Of a stretch of 64,000 bases of DNA, positions 11,664-16,999 are shown in pieces. Below the pieces are notes generated by a model. It was not told the DNA's origin, did not search any database, and saw nothing but the letters and a program-made list of their open reading frames with translations. Each line of letters starts with the position of its first letter. Within the stretch, counting starts at the first letter, position 1. The position numbers and the translations under genes are program-made. The DNA is from Burkholderiales bacterium (GTDB lineage: Bacteria > Pseudomonadota > Gammaproteobacteria > Burkholderiales > Burkholderiaceae_C), in NCBI GenBank assembly GCA_947453625.1, contig CANGHK010000009.1, positions 1 to 64,000 on the forward strand, read 5' to 3'.

Positions 11664-12068
11664 ATGCCTGACCCCGATGCCACCCCCAACACCGTCGAGG
11701 GCCTGGCGCTGTTGCTGTGGTCGGCCGACACCGACGCGCCGCATCGCCTGGCCACGCCTTTTTCCTACGCCGCGGCTGCGGCGGCGATGGATTTGCGCGT
11801 CGAAATCTATTTCACCGCGCGCAGCGTCGAACTGCTGTTGCCCGGCGTGGCGGCATCGCTGCGAGCCTCGCCACGGCACAGCAAGACCGTTCTCGACGCG
11901 ATGCGCGAATCCGTCGCGCAAGGCGCCGTGCTGTGGGCCTGCAGCGATGCGCTGGCAGCGCTAGTCACAGCCCCGCAAGTGCTTATCCCCGAATGCAGTG
12001 GACGCGGCGGTGCGGTGCAGTTCATCGCGCGCGCCGCCGACCTGCGCTGGCGCACCCTGGTCTTCTGA
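11664..12068 (+). CDS. DsrE/DsrF-like protein
   Basis: 134 aa alpha/beta protein of the DsrE/F/TusD type, which passes persulfide sulfur between carrier proteins or acts as a structural partner. Features: first strand GLALLLWSAD, helix with TPFSYAAAAAAMDL, strand-turn VEIYFTARSVELLLPG, and a cysteine at 93 in LWACSDAL at the position where active DsrE proteins carry theirs. A second cysteine is Cys111. The start is placed at 11664, where GGAG lies about 10 bases upstream; the frame is open further upstream without family resemblance. First gene of the sulfur-relay/ABC/methyltransferase locus. Confidence 0.7.
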   Translation: MPDPDATPNTVEGLALLLWSADTDAPHRLATPFSYAAAAAAMDLRVEIYFTARSVELLLPGVAASLRASPRHSKTVLDAMRESVAQGAVLWACSDALAALVTAPQVLIPECSGRGGAVQFIARAADLRWRTLVF

Positions 12069-12305
12069 ACACGATCCGCCGGAAGGTGAGCGCTGGCTAA
12101 CCACGTTCTCCCTCTTGCAGCCAGGCGTCTAAAATGGCGGGTTGGTGTGGCCTGGATTGCACCGGCGCCTGAATCCGGGTTCGCGGCAAGGCGAGGACGA
12201 TCCGGGCCGGTTGTTTCATCCCGCGCCGGCGTCAACGCCAGGACTGCGCCAGGCGGACAGCGCACCAACCCCCTCGACAACCGGTCGCGCCACCGCACAG
12301 ACGAC

Positions 12306-12527
12306 ATGAACATCGATGAAGACGACAGCTGGGACGCCGGCGACATGGGCTGCGGTGAACTCGTGATCGAGTTGCGCACACGCCTGCTGGCGATGCCTGG
12401 CAGGGTACTCAAGCTGATCGCCACCGATGCCGGCGCCCCGGAAGACATCCCCGCCTACTGCCGAATGACCCGCCACGAGTTGCTGCATGCGGCCGCTCCG
12501 GCGTACTGGATCCGTGCCCGATCCTGA
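12306..12527 (+). CDS. TusA-like sulfur carrier protein (divergent)
   Basis: 73 aa. It resembles the TusA fold: Cys at 16 after the first strand (DMGCGELVIELR), a long helix, strand VLKLIATD, then DIPAYCRMTRHELL, matching the D-x-P-x-[FW]-C...G-H-E region of TusA. The usual C-P-x-P motif is C-G-E-L here and a second cysteine (Cys52) is kept. The same two departures are present in the TusA-like domain fused to the methionine-synthase domain at 15467-16999, so they form a matched paralogous pair. The start at 12306 gives the normal TusA length. Confidence 0.72.
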   Translation: MNIDEDDSWDAGDMGCGELVIELRTRLLAMPGRVLKLIATDAGAPEDIPAYCRMTRHELLHAAAPAYWIRARS

Positions 12528-12576
12528 ATCCGCGCGTGACCCCACGCCATTTCATCCCCCTCTTTTGGAGAACTCC

Positions 12577-12939
12577 ATGTCCGGAAAATTCGTTGTCAGC
12601 CTGACCCATGCCAAGAACGACACCGACAAGGCCACCGTCGCCTTTGTCGTCGCCAACGCCGCAGTGGCGTCGGACAAGGATGCGATGGTCTTCCTGTCGA
12701 TCGAGGCCGTGCGCCTGGCCCAGCCCGGCTTTGCCGACGACATCCATGAAGAAGGCTTTCTGCCGCTGAAGGACTTGATCGCCAACTTCGTCGCCGCCGG
12801 CGGCAAGATCTACGTCTGCTCGCCCTGCTTCAAGAAGCGCAAGCTCGACGAGACCGCGCTGGTGCCCGGCGCGGTGATCGTTGGTGGCGCCAAGCTGGTC
12901 GAGTTCATGGGCGACGCCTGCCCCAGCATCAGCTACTGA
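12577..12939 (+). CDS. DsrE-family protein with CxxC
   Basis: 120 aa DsrE-like protein. Strand FVVSLTHAKND, helix TVAFVVANAAVAS, strand AMVFLSIEAVRL, helix PLKDLIANFVAAGG, then IYVCSPCFKKRKL with Cys81 and Cys84. A cysteine in this loop is the sulfur-binding residue of DsrE-type proteins, and the C-x-x-C pairing suggests redox or persulfide chemistry. Cys115 (GDACPS) is a third. TTTTGGAGAACTCC upstream of the ATG is a strong ribosome site and fixes the start. It follows the TusA-like gene closely and precedes the ABC binding protein. Confidence 0.82.
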   Translation: MSGKFVVSLTHAKNDTDKATVAFVVANAAVASDKDAMVFLSIEAVRLAQPGFADDIHEEGFLPLKDLIANFVAAGGKIYVCSPCFKKRKLDETALVPGAVIVGGAKLVEFMGDACPSISY

Positions 12940-12955
12940 GCCGCACAAGGTGACG

Positions 12956-13831
12956 ATGCAATCACAACGCCGCAAGCTCCTGATCGGCACGGCCGGCCTG
13001 CTCAGCGTGGCCGCGCTGCGCCCGGTGATGGCGCAGAGCAAGAAGCTGCGCTTCGGCGTGGGCCCGCTGCTGCCCAACCCCGAGGACACCAAGAAGGCCT
13101 ATATGCCGGTGTTCGCGCATCTGGCCAAGCAACTCGGTGCCGACTTCGAGCTCTTCGCCACCACCGACTGGGCCGGCATGGCCGTGGCGATGGCCTCAGG
13201 CAACCTGGACCTGGCGTGGATGGGTCCCTGGGGCTACATCATCGCCAACAACCAGACCGGCTGCCAGGCGGTGGCCACCGTCAAGTACGACGACAAGCCG
13301 ATCTACCACGCCATCGTCATCGCCAGGCCCGAGCTGAGGGTGGCCAAGTTCCCGGACGACACGCGCGGCATGAGCATGTCGTTTGCCGATGTCGGCTCGA
13401 CCTCGGGCTGGCTGATCCCCAGCTACTACGCCCGCGACACGTGGAAGATCGAGCCCAAGTCGTTCTGGAAGTACACCGAGGGCGCGACGCATGCGGCCAA
13501 CGAGATCGCCGTCAGCAACGGGCAAGTCGACCTGGCGACCGATTTCGACCGCAACCGCAACGCGATGATCGCCGCCGGCCGGGTCAAGGCCGACGCGAAC
13601 AAGATCGTCTGGCAATCGGCGCCTTTGCCCAACGACGCGATCGCGCTGCCAGCCGGCGCGCCGCGTGAGCGGGTGGCGCAGGTGCAGCAGGTGCTGACCG
13701 CGATCGACAACGAGGCCGCCAAGACCCTGCTGCCGGCGCGCTACACCGGCTTCGTCGCCGCCACGCATGCCAGCTACGCGGACATCGAGAAGGCCGGCAT
13801 CGCGGTCGGCAAGATCAAACCGCGCGCGTGA
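12956..13831 (+). CDS. PhnD-type ABC substrate-binding protein
   Basis: 291 aa periplasmic receptor. Signal peptide at 1-26 (ending PVMAQ), then the PhnD fold with FGVGPLLPNPEDTKKAYMPV, the L-A-W-M-G-P-W-G-Y loop, and FADVGSTSGWLIPSYY, typical of phosphate/phosphite/phosphonate receptors. Receptors of this family also bind other small anions or organosulfur compounds, and no phosphonate-lyase genes are present, so the ligand should not be assumed to contain phosphorus. Seventeen bases follow the DsrE stop; AAGGTG precedes the ATG. The neighbours point to a sulfur-containing or methylated ligand. Confidence 0.8.
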   Translation: MQSQRRKLLIGTAGLLSVAALRPVMAQSKKLRFGVGPLLPNPEDTKKAYMPVFAHLAKQLGADFELFATTDWAGMAVAMASGNLDLAWMGPWGYIIANNQTGCQAVATVKYDDKPIYHAIVIARPELRVAKFPDDTRGMSMSFADVGSTSGWLIPSYYARDTWKIEPKSFWKYTEGATHAANEIAVSNGQVDLATDFDRNRNAMIAAGRVKADANKIVWQSAPLPNDAIALPAGAPRERVAQVQQVLTAIDNEAAKTLLPARYTGFVAATHASYADIEKAGIAVGKIKPRA

Positions 13832-13898
13832 ACGCCCAGGCCTTGCCGCGCATGAACAGCCGCGGGGCGGGGCCGGCAGCGGGACGTGAGGCCCGGCG

Positions 13899-14702
13899 AT
13901 GAGCGCCATCGACCAGGCGCTGGCGGCGCTGGATCACCGGCCGCGCGGCCAGCGCTGGCGCCAGGCCGGCATCGCCCTGGTGCTGCTGGCGTTCTACGCG
14001 CTGTGCTGGCAGTTGGCCGACATCGACCTGGCGCGCCTGGCCAACGGCCTGCCGAAGATGGGCCGCTGGATCGCGTCGGCCTGGCCGCCGGTGTGGGCCG
14101 AGCTGCCGACATTCCTGCTGCGCACCGCCGAGACGGTGGCGATGGCCGCGCTCGGCACCACCGCCGCGGTGCTGCTGGCGCTGCCGATGGCGGTGCTGGC
14201 GGCGCGCAACGTCACGCCCTGGCCGCGCGCGGTGGGCCCGGCGCGGCTGCTGCTCAACGCGCTGCGCGGCATCGACGCCTTCGTCTTTGCGCTGCTGTTC
14301 GTCGCCGCGGTCGGGCTGGGGCCGTTTGCCGGCGTGCTGGGCATCGCGCTGCACACCTGGGGCAGCGCCGCGAAGAACTTTGCCGACGCGATCGAGAACG
14401 TCTCGCTCGAGCCCTTCGAGGCCGTGCGCAGCACCGGCGCGTCGCGCGGCACCGCGCTGGTCTATGCGGTGCTGCCCGACGTGCTGCCGGTGCTGCTGTC
14501 GACCGCGCTGTTCTGGTGGGAATTCAACGTCCGGGCCTCCACCGTGCTGGGCGTGGTCGGCGCCGGCGGCATCGGCCAGGAGCTCAAGAGCAGCATGGAC
14601 TTGCTGGACTTCCCCAGGCTGTTCACGATCATCGTCGTCATCGTCCTCGTCGTCACGCTGCTCGACCGCTTCTCGGGCTGGCTGCGCAGCCGCCTGACAT
14701 GA
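13899..14702 (+). CDS. PhnE-type ABC permease
   Basis: 267 aa inner-membrane permease with about six hydrophobic helices. The cytoplasmic coupling helix (EAA motif) reads FEAVRSTGASRGTALVYAVLPDV, followed by NVRASTVLGVVGAGGIGQEL, which is the PhnE signature. One permease subunit is present, so it presumably works as a homodimer with two copies of the ATPase. Its stop overlaps the ATPase start (ATGA), indicating coupled translation. Confidence 0.85.
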   Translation: MSAIDQALAALDHRPRGQRWRQAGIALVLLAFYALCWQLADIDLARLANGLPKMGRWIASAWPPVWAELPTFLLRTAETVAMAALGTTAAVLLALPMAVLAARNVTPWPRAVGPARLLLNALRGIDAFVFALLFVAAVGLGPFAGVLGIALHTWGSAAKNFADAIENVSLEPFEAVRSTGASRGTALVYAVLPDVLPVLLSTALFWWEFNVRASTVLGVVGAGGIGQELKSSMDLLDFPRLFTIIVVIVLVVTLLDRFSGWLRSRLT

Positions 14703-15457
14703 GCGCGCCGCTGCTGGAGGTGCGTGGCCTGGGCCATAGCCTGGGCGGCCGCATGGTGCTGGCCGGCGTCGACCTGTCGGTGCGGCGCGGCGAATTCGTC
14801 GCGCTGCTCGGCCCCAGCGGTGCCGGCAAGACGACGCTGATCAAGTGCATCACCGGCTTGATGCGGCCTGAACGCGGTGAGGTACGCATCGCCGGCGCCG
14901 AGTTGTCAACGCTGCAGGGCCGCGAACGCCGGCGTGTGGCGGTGGTCTTCCAGCAGTTCAACCTGGTGCGCCGCCTGTCGGCACTGGACAACGTGCTGGC
15001 CGGCCGACTCGGCCATGTGCCGGCCTGGCGCGGCTGGCTGCGCCAGTTCGAGCGCGCCGACCGCCGGCTGGCGCTGGCCTGCCTGGACCGGGTCGGGCTG
15101 CTGGCCCAGGCCGGCCAGCGTGCCGACACCCTCAGCGGCGGCCAGCAGCAGCGGGTGGCGATCGCCCGCGCGCTGGCCCAGCAACCCGAGCTGATCGTCG
15201 CCGACGAGCCGGTGGCCAGCCTGGACCCGAGCGCCAGCGCCGGCATCCTGGAACTGCTGCAAGCCATCTGCCGCGACGACGGCGTGGCGGTGGTCTGCAG
15301 CCTGCACCAGTTGGAACTGGCCCAGCAGTTTGCGCACAGGCTGGTGGGGCTGGCGGCGGGCCGCGTGCAATTCGACGCCGCATCCGCCAGCATCGCCGCC
15401 GACACCACGACCGCGCTATACCAATCCGTCCACCCGCGAGGCCTCGCGCCGACCTGA
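14699..15457 (+). CDS. PhnC-type ABC ATPase
   Basis: 252 aa nucleotide-binding subunit. Walker A GPSGAGKTT, Q-loop VVFQQFNLV, signature [15 protein letters not shown], Walker B LIVADEPVASLDP and an H-loop (CSLHQLEL) are all intact, and ADEPVASLDP is the wording typical of PhnC. The start is fixed by the ATGA overlap with the permease. It closes the PhnD-E-C-order importer; the fused TusA-MetE gene begins nine bases after its stop, so it is very probably in the same transcript. Confidence 0.87.
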   Translation: MSAPLLEVRGLGHSLGGRMVLAGVDLSVRRGEFVALLGPSGAGKTTLIKCITGLMRPERGEVRIAGAELSTLQGRERRRVAVVFQQFNLVRRLSALDNVLAGRLGHVPAWRGWLRQFERADRRLALACLDRVGLLAQAGQRADTLSGGQQQRVAIARALAQQPELIVADEPVASLDPSASAGILELLQAICRDDGVAVVCSLHQLELAQQFAHRLVGLAAGRVQFDAASASIAADTTTALYQSVHPRGLAPT

Positions 15458-15466
15458 AAGCACCCC

Positions 15467-16999
15467 ATGGAACCGACCTCCCACCACCTGCTGAGCCCGG
15501 ACACCGCCTTCGACGGTGGCGACCTCGACTGCGGCAACGGCCTGCTGCTGCTGATCCGCAAGCACATCGACCCTTTGCCGCAGGGCGGCCTGCTCGAACT
15601 GCGCTCGACCGAGATCTCGGTAGACGAGGACTTGCCGGCCTGGTGCCGGATGACCAAGAACGAGCTGGTGTCGTGGACCAAGGTCGGCAAGCAGCGCAGC
15701 TTCCTGATCAGCAAGGGCCCGCTGGCCGCACGCAGCGCAGCCAACGCGGCCAGCTTGCCCGCCACGCCGCGCGCCGCAGCGCCTGAAGCGGTCAGCGCGA
15801 CCGAGCCCGTGGCCTTGCCACGCCGCGAGCCGGTGGCCCCGCGCCCGGTGCCGGCGCTGACGGTCACCGGCATGGGCAGCTGGCCGCGCCCGCGCTGGCT
15901 GGTCGAGGCGATGCACGCCCATGTCCAGGGCCGGCTGGACGACACCGCCTTCCAGGAAACCGCCGACGATGCGGTGCGGCTGATCGCCGCCGCCCAGCAG
16001 CGCGCCGGCGCGACGCTCTACACCGACGGTGAACAGCGCCGCGACAGCTACGCCAGCTTCGTCGCCACCCGGCTCGACAACTGCCAGCTGGTGCCGCTGA
16101 TCGACCTGCTGCCGCTGGTCGAAGACCCGGTGGCCTTCGAGGCCGAGTTGCGCGCACTGGACGTGCCGGCGGGCGAGGTGCGCCACCCCGGCGTGTTCGG
16201 CCGCATCCGGCGCAGCCGGCCGATCGCGGTGCATGAATTCGACTTCCTGCGCAGTGTGACCGACGCGCCGATCAAGATCGCGTTACCCGGCCCCTATCTG
16301 CTGACGCGCACGATGTGGATGGACTGCATCGCCGACAACGTCTATGCCAACCGCGAACAGATCGCCGCCGACATCGTGCGCGTGCTGCGCGAGGAGGTGA
16401 TGGACTTGCTGGACGCCGGCGTGTCCATCGTGCAGCTCGACGAGCCCGTGCTGTCCGAGGTGGTGTTCAGCGGGCAGAAGAACAAGCGCAGCTTCATGTG
16501 CGGCGCGCTGTCCGAGTCCGAGGGGCCCGAGCATGAGCTGGGCTTCGCCAAGGAACTGGTCAACGCGGTGATCGCCGGCCTGCCGCGCGAGCGCATCGCG
16601 CTGCATGTCTGCCGTGGCAACTGGACACCCGACGAGTCGGTGGCGTTGTCGGGCAGCTACGCGCCGCTGATCCCGACGCTGGCGGGCATGAAGGTCGGCG
16701 CCTACCTGTTGGAGGCGTGCACGCCGCGCGCCGGCGACATGGAACTGCTGCGCGGCCTGCCGCAGGATGCGCGCATCGGCGTCGGCGTGGTCAACCAGAA
16801 GGACCAGGCTATCGAGCCCGATGACGAGATCGCCGGTCGCATAGCCCGGGCGATCTCGCTGTTCGGCGCCGATCGCGTGCTGCTCCACCCCGACTGCGGC
16901 TTCGCGACCTTCGCCGACAACCCGATCTGCTCGGCCACGATTGCCGAGGCCAAGCTGGCCGCGATCGCCAGGGCAGCACTGCGCTTCAGAAGCCCCTGA
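15467..16999 (+). CDS. Fusion: TusA-like sulfur carrier domain + cobalamin-independent methionine synthase (MetE C-terminal) domain
   Basis: 510 aa. Residues about 15-85 form a TusA-like domain with Cys22 in DLDCGNGLL and Cys60 in DLPAWCRMTKNEL, closely matching the stand-alone TusA-like protein at 12306. An Ala/Pro-rich linker (about 86-130) leads into a TIM-barrel methionine-synthase-II domain (131-510). Its zinc ligands are visible: His380 and Cys382 in HVCRGNW, a probable Glu416 in LLEAC, and Cys477 in HPDCGFAT. MetE-type zinc sites activate thiols for methyl or alkyl transfer. Full-length MetE has two barrels (over 750 aa); only the catalytic one is present. The fusion suggests that a carrier-bound persulfide or thiol is the acceptor or donor (inference). 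No strong ribosome site precedes the ATG; coupling to the ATPase is likely. Confidence 0.88.
   Translation: MEPTSHHLLSPDTAFDGGDLDCGNGLLLLIRKHIDPLPQGGLLELRSTEISVDEDLPAWCRMTKNELVSWTKVGKQRSFLISKGPLAARSAANAASLPATPRAAAPEAVSATEPVALPRREPVAPRPVPALTVTGMGSWPRPRWLVEAMHAHVQGRLDDTAFQETADDAVRLIAAAQQRAGATLYTDGEQRRDSYASFVATRLDNCQLVPLIDLLPLVEDPVAFEAELRALDVPAGEVRHPGVFGRIRRSRPIAVHEFDFLRSVTDAPIKIALPGPYLLTRTMWMDCIADNVYANREQIAADIVRVLREEVMDLLDAGVSIVQLDEPVLSEVVFSGQKNKRSFMCGALSESEGPEHELGFAKELVNAVIAGLPRERIALHVCRGNWTPDESVALSGSYAPLIPTLAGMKVGAYLLEACTPRAGDMELLRGLPQDARIGVGVVNQKDQAIEPDDEIAGRIARAISLFGADRVLLHPDCGFATFADNPICSATIAEAKLAAIARAALRFRSP

Follow-up and report, generated by a model that had tools for sequence, protein, structure and literature searches.

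TusA and DsrE proteins ordinarily carry sulfur, and CPxP is the sulfur-carrier motif of TusA. Domains of both types are also genomically tied to selenium genes in YedF, a TusA-DsrE fusion to which the membrane protein YedE is linked (PMC5322559, where CPxP is named for SirA-like domains). YedF is the nearest described idea to the module treated here, which was found in a stretch of 64,000 nucleotides from a Burkholderiales bacterium (the window; contig CANGHK010000009.1 of assembly GCA_947453625.1). At positions 11664-16999, seven genes encode two DsrE-like proteins (DsrEa and DsrEb), a TusA-like carrier, an ATP-binding cassette (ABC) importer and a protein that joins a TusA-like domain to a MetE-type zinc barrel. 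YedF unites CPxP with CGxC in a single protein and lacks a MetE barrel, whereas the present module distributes CGxL/CGxG and CSPC over separate proteins, includes a TusA-MetE fusion and frequently also encodes an ABC importer. The module is widespread and mainly proteobacterial, the window locus being one form of it. It is considered somewhat probable that it serves the acquisition and delivery of selenium, with the selenium held on the cysteines of TusA and DsrE.

Zinc barrel methyltransferases linked to selenocysteine (Sec) synthesis are known from SdmABC and the type I mlp clusters. These are members of the UroD superfamily with a His-Cys-Cys set and a corrinoid protein, whereas the barrel here is of the MetE family, displays His-Cys-Glu-Cys and is fused to TusA; no corrinoid protein was identified among the module genes, for which no separate search was made. 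The core methionine synthases MesA-MesD also possess the MetE catalytic barrel without folate domain and keep the zinc and homocysteine residues. In contrast to these, the fusion carries a TusA arm, has operon partners and stays under all NCBIfam methionine synthase cut-offs. A TusA-DsrE carrier pair is likewise present in the thiosulfate carriers DsrE3A-DsrE2B-TusA of Metallosphaera, but these flank a heterodisulfide-reductase-like complex, of which there is none among the seven genes here.

An earlier sequence-only reading of the window knew of no pathway with this exact set of genes, and no account of it was found in the open-access literature, among the matches listed; a description elsewhere is possible. 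In the available text of PMC5322559 and of the 2022 and 2026 reviews PMC9312934 and PMC13188914 the term 'methionine synthase' is absent, as is PhnD in PMC5322559, where alone it was sought. It is an open question by which route bacteria take up scarce selenium and how they separate it from the far commoner sulfur before it reaches SelD, and two papers (including PMC11097638) state that no selenium-specific transporter has been identified. The module offers named, testable genes for the import and carriage of selenium.

Conservation of the module and its importers

A fusion-type match with at least about 50% identity is present in nine of the 200 genomes of the window's own order (the window genome, G000, included). 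A scan of genome contigs confirmed 373 relatives, the best 80 of which were retained, and it is thereby excluded that the fusion is unique to this genome. The retained relatives belong mainly to alpha- and betaproteobacteria, and a few were found in metagenome-assembled genomes (MAGs) labelled Planctomycetota, Acidobacteria, Rokuibacteriota, Eisenbacteria and Deltaproteobacteria. On Paracoccus plasmids, the fusion shows 70-71% identity.

Altogether 91 loci were listed, or 87 distinct loci once four duplicates are subtracted. The sequence-only reading had proposed a search for the same gene set in other genomes. It was found that TusA accompanies the fusion in 80 of the distinct loci and DsrEb in 81 (both in 80), with the order TusA-DsrEb-(importer)-fusion being kept in 78; TusA is divergent in two loci (L084 and L096). 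With the fusion relatives being 60-84% identical to the window copy, this order marks the locus as more than a chance assemblage. The other DsrE-like protein, DsrEa, was matched at 12 of the 91 listed loci (the window and one duplicate counted in). Of the set comprising two DsrE-like proteins, TusA and the importer, DsrEb therefore stands as core and DsrEa is peripheral. One betaproteobacterial MAG harbors two copies of the TusA-DsrEb-fusion set (L073 and L059).

The importer is modular: it is of the PhnDEC type, it is replaced by a different pair of genes (H168/H522), or neither is present. PhnE/PhnC-type genes are situated beside the fusion in 27 of the 87 loci and the H168/H522 pair in another 27. 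Both types occur together in one locus only, L081 of Xanthobacter tagetidis, which brings each count to 28, and 32 loci contain neither type. For the receptor, matches were listed at 26 of the 91 loci. The importer genes usually sit between DsrEb and the fusion, the exceptions being L119 (ABC genes) and L096 (H168/H522 pair), where they lie farther upstream. With 59 of the 87 loci carrying the other pair or neither, the importer was rejected as a defining part, and the PhnDEC-type importer is not essential, being one of two alternatives. The flank survey sought a chosen list of partner genes. Cystathionine beta-synthase was dropped as a partner, since its only occurrences were in L047/L127, which are one genome, and in L049, all of one genus.

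Association with selenium genes

SelA over cut-off was found in 58 of the 74 genomes reached via the scan loci (42 of 49 and 16 of 25). The 80 scan loci lie in 79 genomes, of which that of L114 was left out and those of L109, L127, L131 and L135 belong to the own-order sample; adding these last four gives 59 of 78 (G002 with SelA; G126, G118 and G157 without). As control served the order of G203, a Xanthobacteraceae MAG. Of its 199 genomes, 11 contain SelA, and a fusion match at E <= 1e-60 was obtained in G203 alone. In this Rhizobiales-type order, SelA was observed in 12 of 15 genomes with the fusion versus 10 of 198 without (Fisher p 2e-11), where the 15 were placed in the order from organism names and G203 was likewise assigned to Rhizobiales by this analysis. 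The three without SelA are those of L063 (with a SelA fragment), L075 and L084. As SelA is located in the stored flanks of just 5 of the 91 listed loci, and about 161 kb from the fusion in G203, hitch-hiking is not the cause of this association.

Direct linkage can be observed in a minority of loci: selA, selB or selD occur in the flanks of 7 of the 87 loci, from four lineages. In Paracoccus (L034, L035, L091 and L104) the flanks contain selA and trxB, and in two of them selB as well. The locus of Paracoccus ferrooxidans runs from a divergent cysteine desulfurase through TusA, DsrE, H168, H522 and the fusion to selA and trxB; selB lies upstream of tusA, at a distance of about 8 kb. In the Bradyrhizobiaceae MAG of L061, selD, selB and selA follow downstream, while L059 has selB and L049 selD in the flank. 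By chance, 0.4-0.6 such lineages would be expected instead of four, with P(>=4) of 0.0007-0.003 in a rough Poisson estimate based on an assumed density of 2-3 selenium loci per 5 Mb.

The selenium gene SelU is found in 10 of the 12 SelA-less fusion genomes tested (own-order-sample genomes included) and in 14 of all 16 fusion genomes tested; SelD exceeds its cut-off in 19 of 23 tested. The window genome itself contains SelA, SelD and SelU. As a separate observation, a UGSC-family protein is encoded near selA in this genome (L054 8878-9432, G000:C5), with an in-frame TGA exactly at the U, and is likely a selenoprotein.

Fusion protein, carriers and importer of the window locus

The seven open reading frames (ORFs) at 11664-16999 are all in frame on the plus strand. 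Their start and stop codons were confirmed from the ORF list and the printed codons, and the Pfam and NCBIfam results agree with the domains named in the sequence-only reading. DsrEa and TusA are separated by 237 bp (from the ORF ends), and from TusA onward to the fusion the gaps measure 49, 16, 67, -4 and 9 bp. The tight spacing earlier noted for the last five genes thus holds and extends to TusA, so that the last six are closely spaced.

The fusion (15467..16999, plus strand) has 510 amino acids and was characterized with Pfam, NCBIfam, AlphaFold and alignment. It is composed of a TusA-like domain (residues ~1-84), a linker (~85-130) and a MetE-type zinc barrel (~131-510). The barrel reaches 83.7 bits with Pfam Meth_synt_2 (cut-off 21). 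The TusA domain remains below its cut-off (22.3 of 28.6 bits, E 1e-4); its carrier cysteine Cys22 (codon 15530..15532) is invariant, and the fusion of TusA and MetE proposed earlier was borne out. The alignment comprised 68 of 85 usable fusions (all invariance given for the fusion refers to these 68), with relatives 60-84% identical to the window copy (66-68 aligned sequences); C60 is kept in at least 90%. AlphaFold predicts two folded parts and a low-confidence linker around 99-110 (mean predicted local distance difference test (pLDDT) 84.7, predicted template modelling score 0.77). Among solved structures, the model is matched best by Thermotoga MetE and by 3RPD, a MesD structure.

Pairing by eye with MetE and 3RPD in the alignments identified the zinc ligands as His380 and Cys382 (codons within 16604..16612), Glu416 (16712-16714) and Cys477 (16895-16897), all invariant. 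Also invariant are S138, E189 and D325, which were matched in this analysis to the homocysteine contacts Ser433, Glu484 and Asp599 reported by Price 2021 (PMC7857596). Since all these zinc and homocysteine residues are kept, binding of zinc and of homocysteine, or of a similar amino thiol, has probably been retained by the barrel. The two-domain MetE model TIGR01371 is not reached (68.1 of 929.95 bits), the N-terminus being TusA-like instead, and the best NCBIfam methionine synthase score, likewise below its cut-off, is that with PRK04326 (163.5 of 406 bits). As the window genome possesses a separate MetH and two further MetE-type barrels, housekeeping methionine synthesis need not rely on the fusion.

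Shortened fusions that miss the middle of the barrel occur in G193 and G026 (L051 9608-10732 and L053 3980-4597). The G026 copy is additionally interrupted by a stop, and that of G029 runs off the contig end. When TusA, DsrEb and the fusion of the relatives were checked for in-frame stops (possible Sec), internal ones were found only in two fusions, namely a single stop not at a Cys in L122 and those of the broken L053 copy. The remaining stops lie at or near match ends (TusA of L118, fusion of L074 and L035, H168 of L083 and SelA of L091).

The stand-alone TusA-like carrier (12306..12527, plus strand) passes the Pfam TusA cut-off (31.3 versus 28.6 bits). In both TusA-type carriers CPxP is absent and the cysteine is kept: it lies in CGxL in the stand-alone protein and in CGxG in the fusion. 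The former contains a second cysteine in D-(I/L)-P-A-aromatic-C, and both its cysteines are invariant in the 24 sequences aligned (of 77 usable). DsrEb (12577..12939, plus strand; Pfam DsrE 51.6 bits) has the motif VCSPC, whose CSPC is invariant in 22 aligned sequences (of 85 usable). DsrEa (11664..12068, plus strand) passes the Pfam DsrE cut-off (25.1 versus 22.7 bits).

Three plus-strand genes make up the importer. The permease (13899..14702) and the ATPase (14699..15457) pass the PhnE and PhnC cut-offs, respectively (TIGR01097, 269.5 versus 216.7 bits; TIGR02315, 281.9 versus 266.1 bits), and also match BPD_transp_1 (50.5 bits) and ABC_tran (122.1 bits). The predicted periplasmic anion-binding protein (12956..13831; Pfam Phosphonate-bd 161.7 bits) misses the PhnD equivalog cut-off (159.9 of 261.1 bits). 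In line with the earlier statement that no phosphonate-processing genes accompany the importer, none is present among the seven; genes farther out were not searched by family.

The best Protein Data Bank match of the receptor is HtxB (5me4, E 7e-77). From the alignment with HtxB, its pocket was mapped in this analysis to W73, S149, H180, F198, R200 and D228 (numbering follows window:12953-13828), all six of which are invariant in 15 aligned sequences (15 of 16 usable, the duplicate L109 being omitted). The HtxB pocket W52, N128, F158 and M176 is not matched as such: the Trp is kept and the others are S149, H180 and F198, which is the set of the HtxB-like 'hybrid' subfamily. Selenite and phosphite are both three-oxygen anions of pyramidal XO3 shape, so that the pocket could also fit selenite, without this being proof of it. 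Judged from its residues, the pocket could accommodate anions of this shape, selenite and phosphite among them.

In HtxB, W52 and F158 help to restrict binding to the two-oxygen hypophosphite (Bisson 2017, PMC5700983). The 'HtxB-like' group of Adams 2019 displays N128S, F158H and M176Y/F, and its modelled pocket is about 20 cubic angstrom larger than that of HtxB, with an extra hydrogen-bonding His (PMC6629693). The receptor here resembles the 'hybrid' members, in which the W52 cap is kept together with N128S, F158H and M176F. The authors predicted phosphite as ligand, whereas the genomic context here suggests selenium. On a plasmid of Roseomonas haemaphysalidis (L141 4043-11003), a 52% identical receptor adjoins radical S-adenosylmethionine (SAM) proteins, an arsenosugar-type glycosyltransferase and a metallophosphoesterase; these genes may form a cluster for an arsenic or selenium sugar.

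The H168/H522 pair is conserved in 28 distinct loci (e.g. L034 11862-13946). H168 has four predicted membrane spans and a C-x-x-C-x-A-P motif; H522 has an N-terminal signal-like stretch, is rich in beta structure and ends in a C-terminal anchor. Neither protein of L034 matched a Pfam or NCBIfam family, and no family was common to more than two of 25 H168 members at E <= 1. For the AlphaFold model of H522 (L064, pLDDT 75) no convincing fold match was obtained, the best being the S-layer DUF1608 (template modelling score 0.22). A MerT-like identity of H168, suggested by its motif, was supported by no family search, and an early guess of TctAB transporters for the pair was wrong.

Proposed function and alternatives

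Similar kinds of parts respond to selenium starvation in Methanococcus maripaludis. Transcripts of tusA/tusD rise by 4.5-4.6 log2 and those of a UroD-type operon, probably a methyl-selenide methyltransferase system, by 5.6-7.8 log2, and putative transporters are also up (PMC11097638). Type I mlp clusters, whose zinc methyltransferases have been proposed to act on methyl-selenium, are found together with Sec synthesis in 87% of species (PMC10418091, preprint). From these precedents, which share the three kinds of parts (importer, TusA/DsrE carriers and zinc methyltransferase-like barrel), a scheme of import, reduction, possible demethylation and delivery to SelD was derived. The HtxB-like receptor would capture a small anion of selenium, with selenite or methylseleninate as the likeliest candidates, and the ABC transporter would bring it into the cell; elsewhere, import would involve the unrelated membrane/periplasmic pair or neither. 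In the cytoplasm, the selenium would be reduced and then bound to cysteines as a selenyl sulfide, its carriers being TusA, the CxxC DsrE and the TusA domain of the fusion, and so be kept apart from bulk sulfur. A methylated selenium species may then sit on the fused TusA arm or be delivered to it. The zinc/homocysteine barrel may accept its methyl group, yielding methionine and freed selenium; these two steps are the most speculative. The freed selenium would reach SelD for the SelD/SelA/SelU machinery. The whole scheme, with demethylation included, is put forward tentatively. It is likewise rather doubtful that the locus is a dedicated high-affinity system, in which SelD is fed by a selenite- or methylseleninate-specific ABC importer, a chain of protein carriers that separates selenium from sulfur, and a corrinoid-free zinc enzyme that demethylates methyl-selenium on the tethered TusA arm.

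Several observations weigh against a role in selenium metabolism. Fusion genomes of the window's own order show no enrichment of SelA (4 of 9 versus 52 of 191 others, p 0.22), and SelD (7 of 9, from a base of 143 in 200) was discarded there as uninformative; SelU is present in 9 of 9 versus 131 of 191 others (p 0.04). SelA over cut-off is missing from 16 of the 74 scan genomes (G204 and G243 have fragments), and of seven of these tested, five contain SelU and two, G204 and G220, do not. G220 thus has neither SelA nor SelU, and its SelD match (298 bits, over cut-off) lies inside a frame of 1,027 amino acids. SelD over cut-off was not found in the fusion genomes G002, G126, G240 and G248, the latter two being Acidobacteria and Planctomycetota MAGs, both with SelA. 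The stored flanks of 80 of the 87 loci, the window's included, hold no selA, selB or selD. The relatives analysed, the best 80 of 373, include many MAGs and come from lineages that are not independent, and the SelA association could stem, at least in part, from a shared lifestyle. With TIGR04553, a putative selenate receptor, the window receptor scores 78.1 of 250 bits, far under the cut-off; two receptors outside the module score equally, and this similarity was therefore rejected as proof of selenium. A plasmid of Ciceribacter selenitireducens encodes a 72.5% identical receptor with the same pocket next to PhnE/PhnC and a PhyH-type dioxygenase (L140 10839-14662), and no TusA, DsrE or fusion is annotated in the 25 kb around it. 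The receptor group is thus not tied to the module, and the species name is suggestive, no more. Methyl transfer, the most speculative part, draws on residue conservation and analogy.

In an organosulfur pathway, a small methylated sulfur anion would be imported and loaded on TusA/DsrE, and its methyl group passed to homocysteine for sulfur or carbon use. Such a pathway would agree with the ordinary sulfur-carrier role of TusA and DsrE, with the intact zinc/homocysteine barrel and with the fusion genomes without SelA, and sulfur genes may recur farther out, as the flank survey was limited to chosen partners. It is nevertheless judged unlikely given the SelA distribution in the Rhizobiales-type order (12 of 15 versus 10 of 198) and the selA, selB and selD genes in the flanks of four lineages. 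From the sequence-only reading, the single conserved module, the small-anion importer and the joining of carrier cysteines to a zinc barrel for thiol alkylation are retained, while the element is probably selenium, as indicated by SelA in 58 of 74 genomes, the flanking sel genes and SelU in 10 of 12.

The module might also recycle or detoxify accidentally methylated selenium (methylselenol from selenide and SAM) instead of acquiring it. The importer would then be optional, as the 32 loci with neither type would suggest, and a similar role has been proposed for type I mlp clusters (PMC10418091). This option is quite improbable, as ABC importer genes adjoin the fusion in 28 loci and L081 even has both types. 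Very improbable is a phosphite or phosphonate uptake cassette sitting by chance among sulfur-carrier genes. The passed PhnE and PhnC cut-offs, the phosphite predicted for 'hybrid' receptors (PMC6629693) and the C. selenitireducens copy, which stands apart from the module, would be compatible with it. However, the PhnD cut-off is missed, no C-P lyase gene is present among the seven (neighbors were not searched by family), and 28 of 87 loci combine the module with the ABC genes, the other pair replacing them in 27. For the HtxB-like 'hybrid' receptors, which have been discussed for phosphite biocontainment (PMC6629693), selenium acquisition would offer a different reading.

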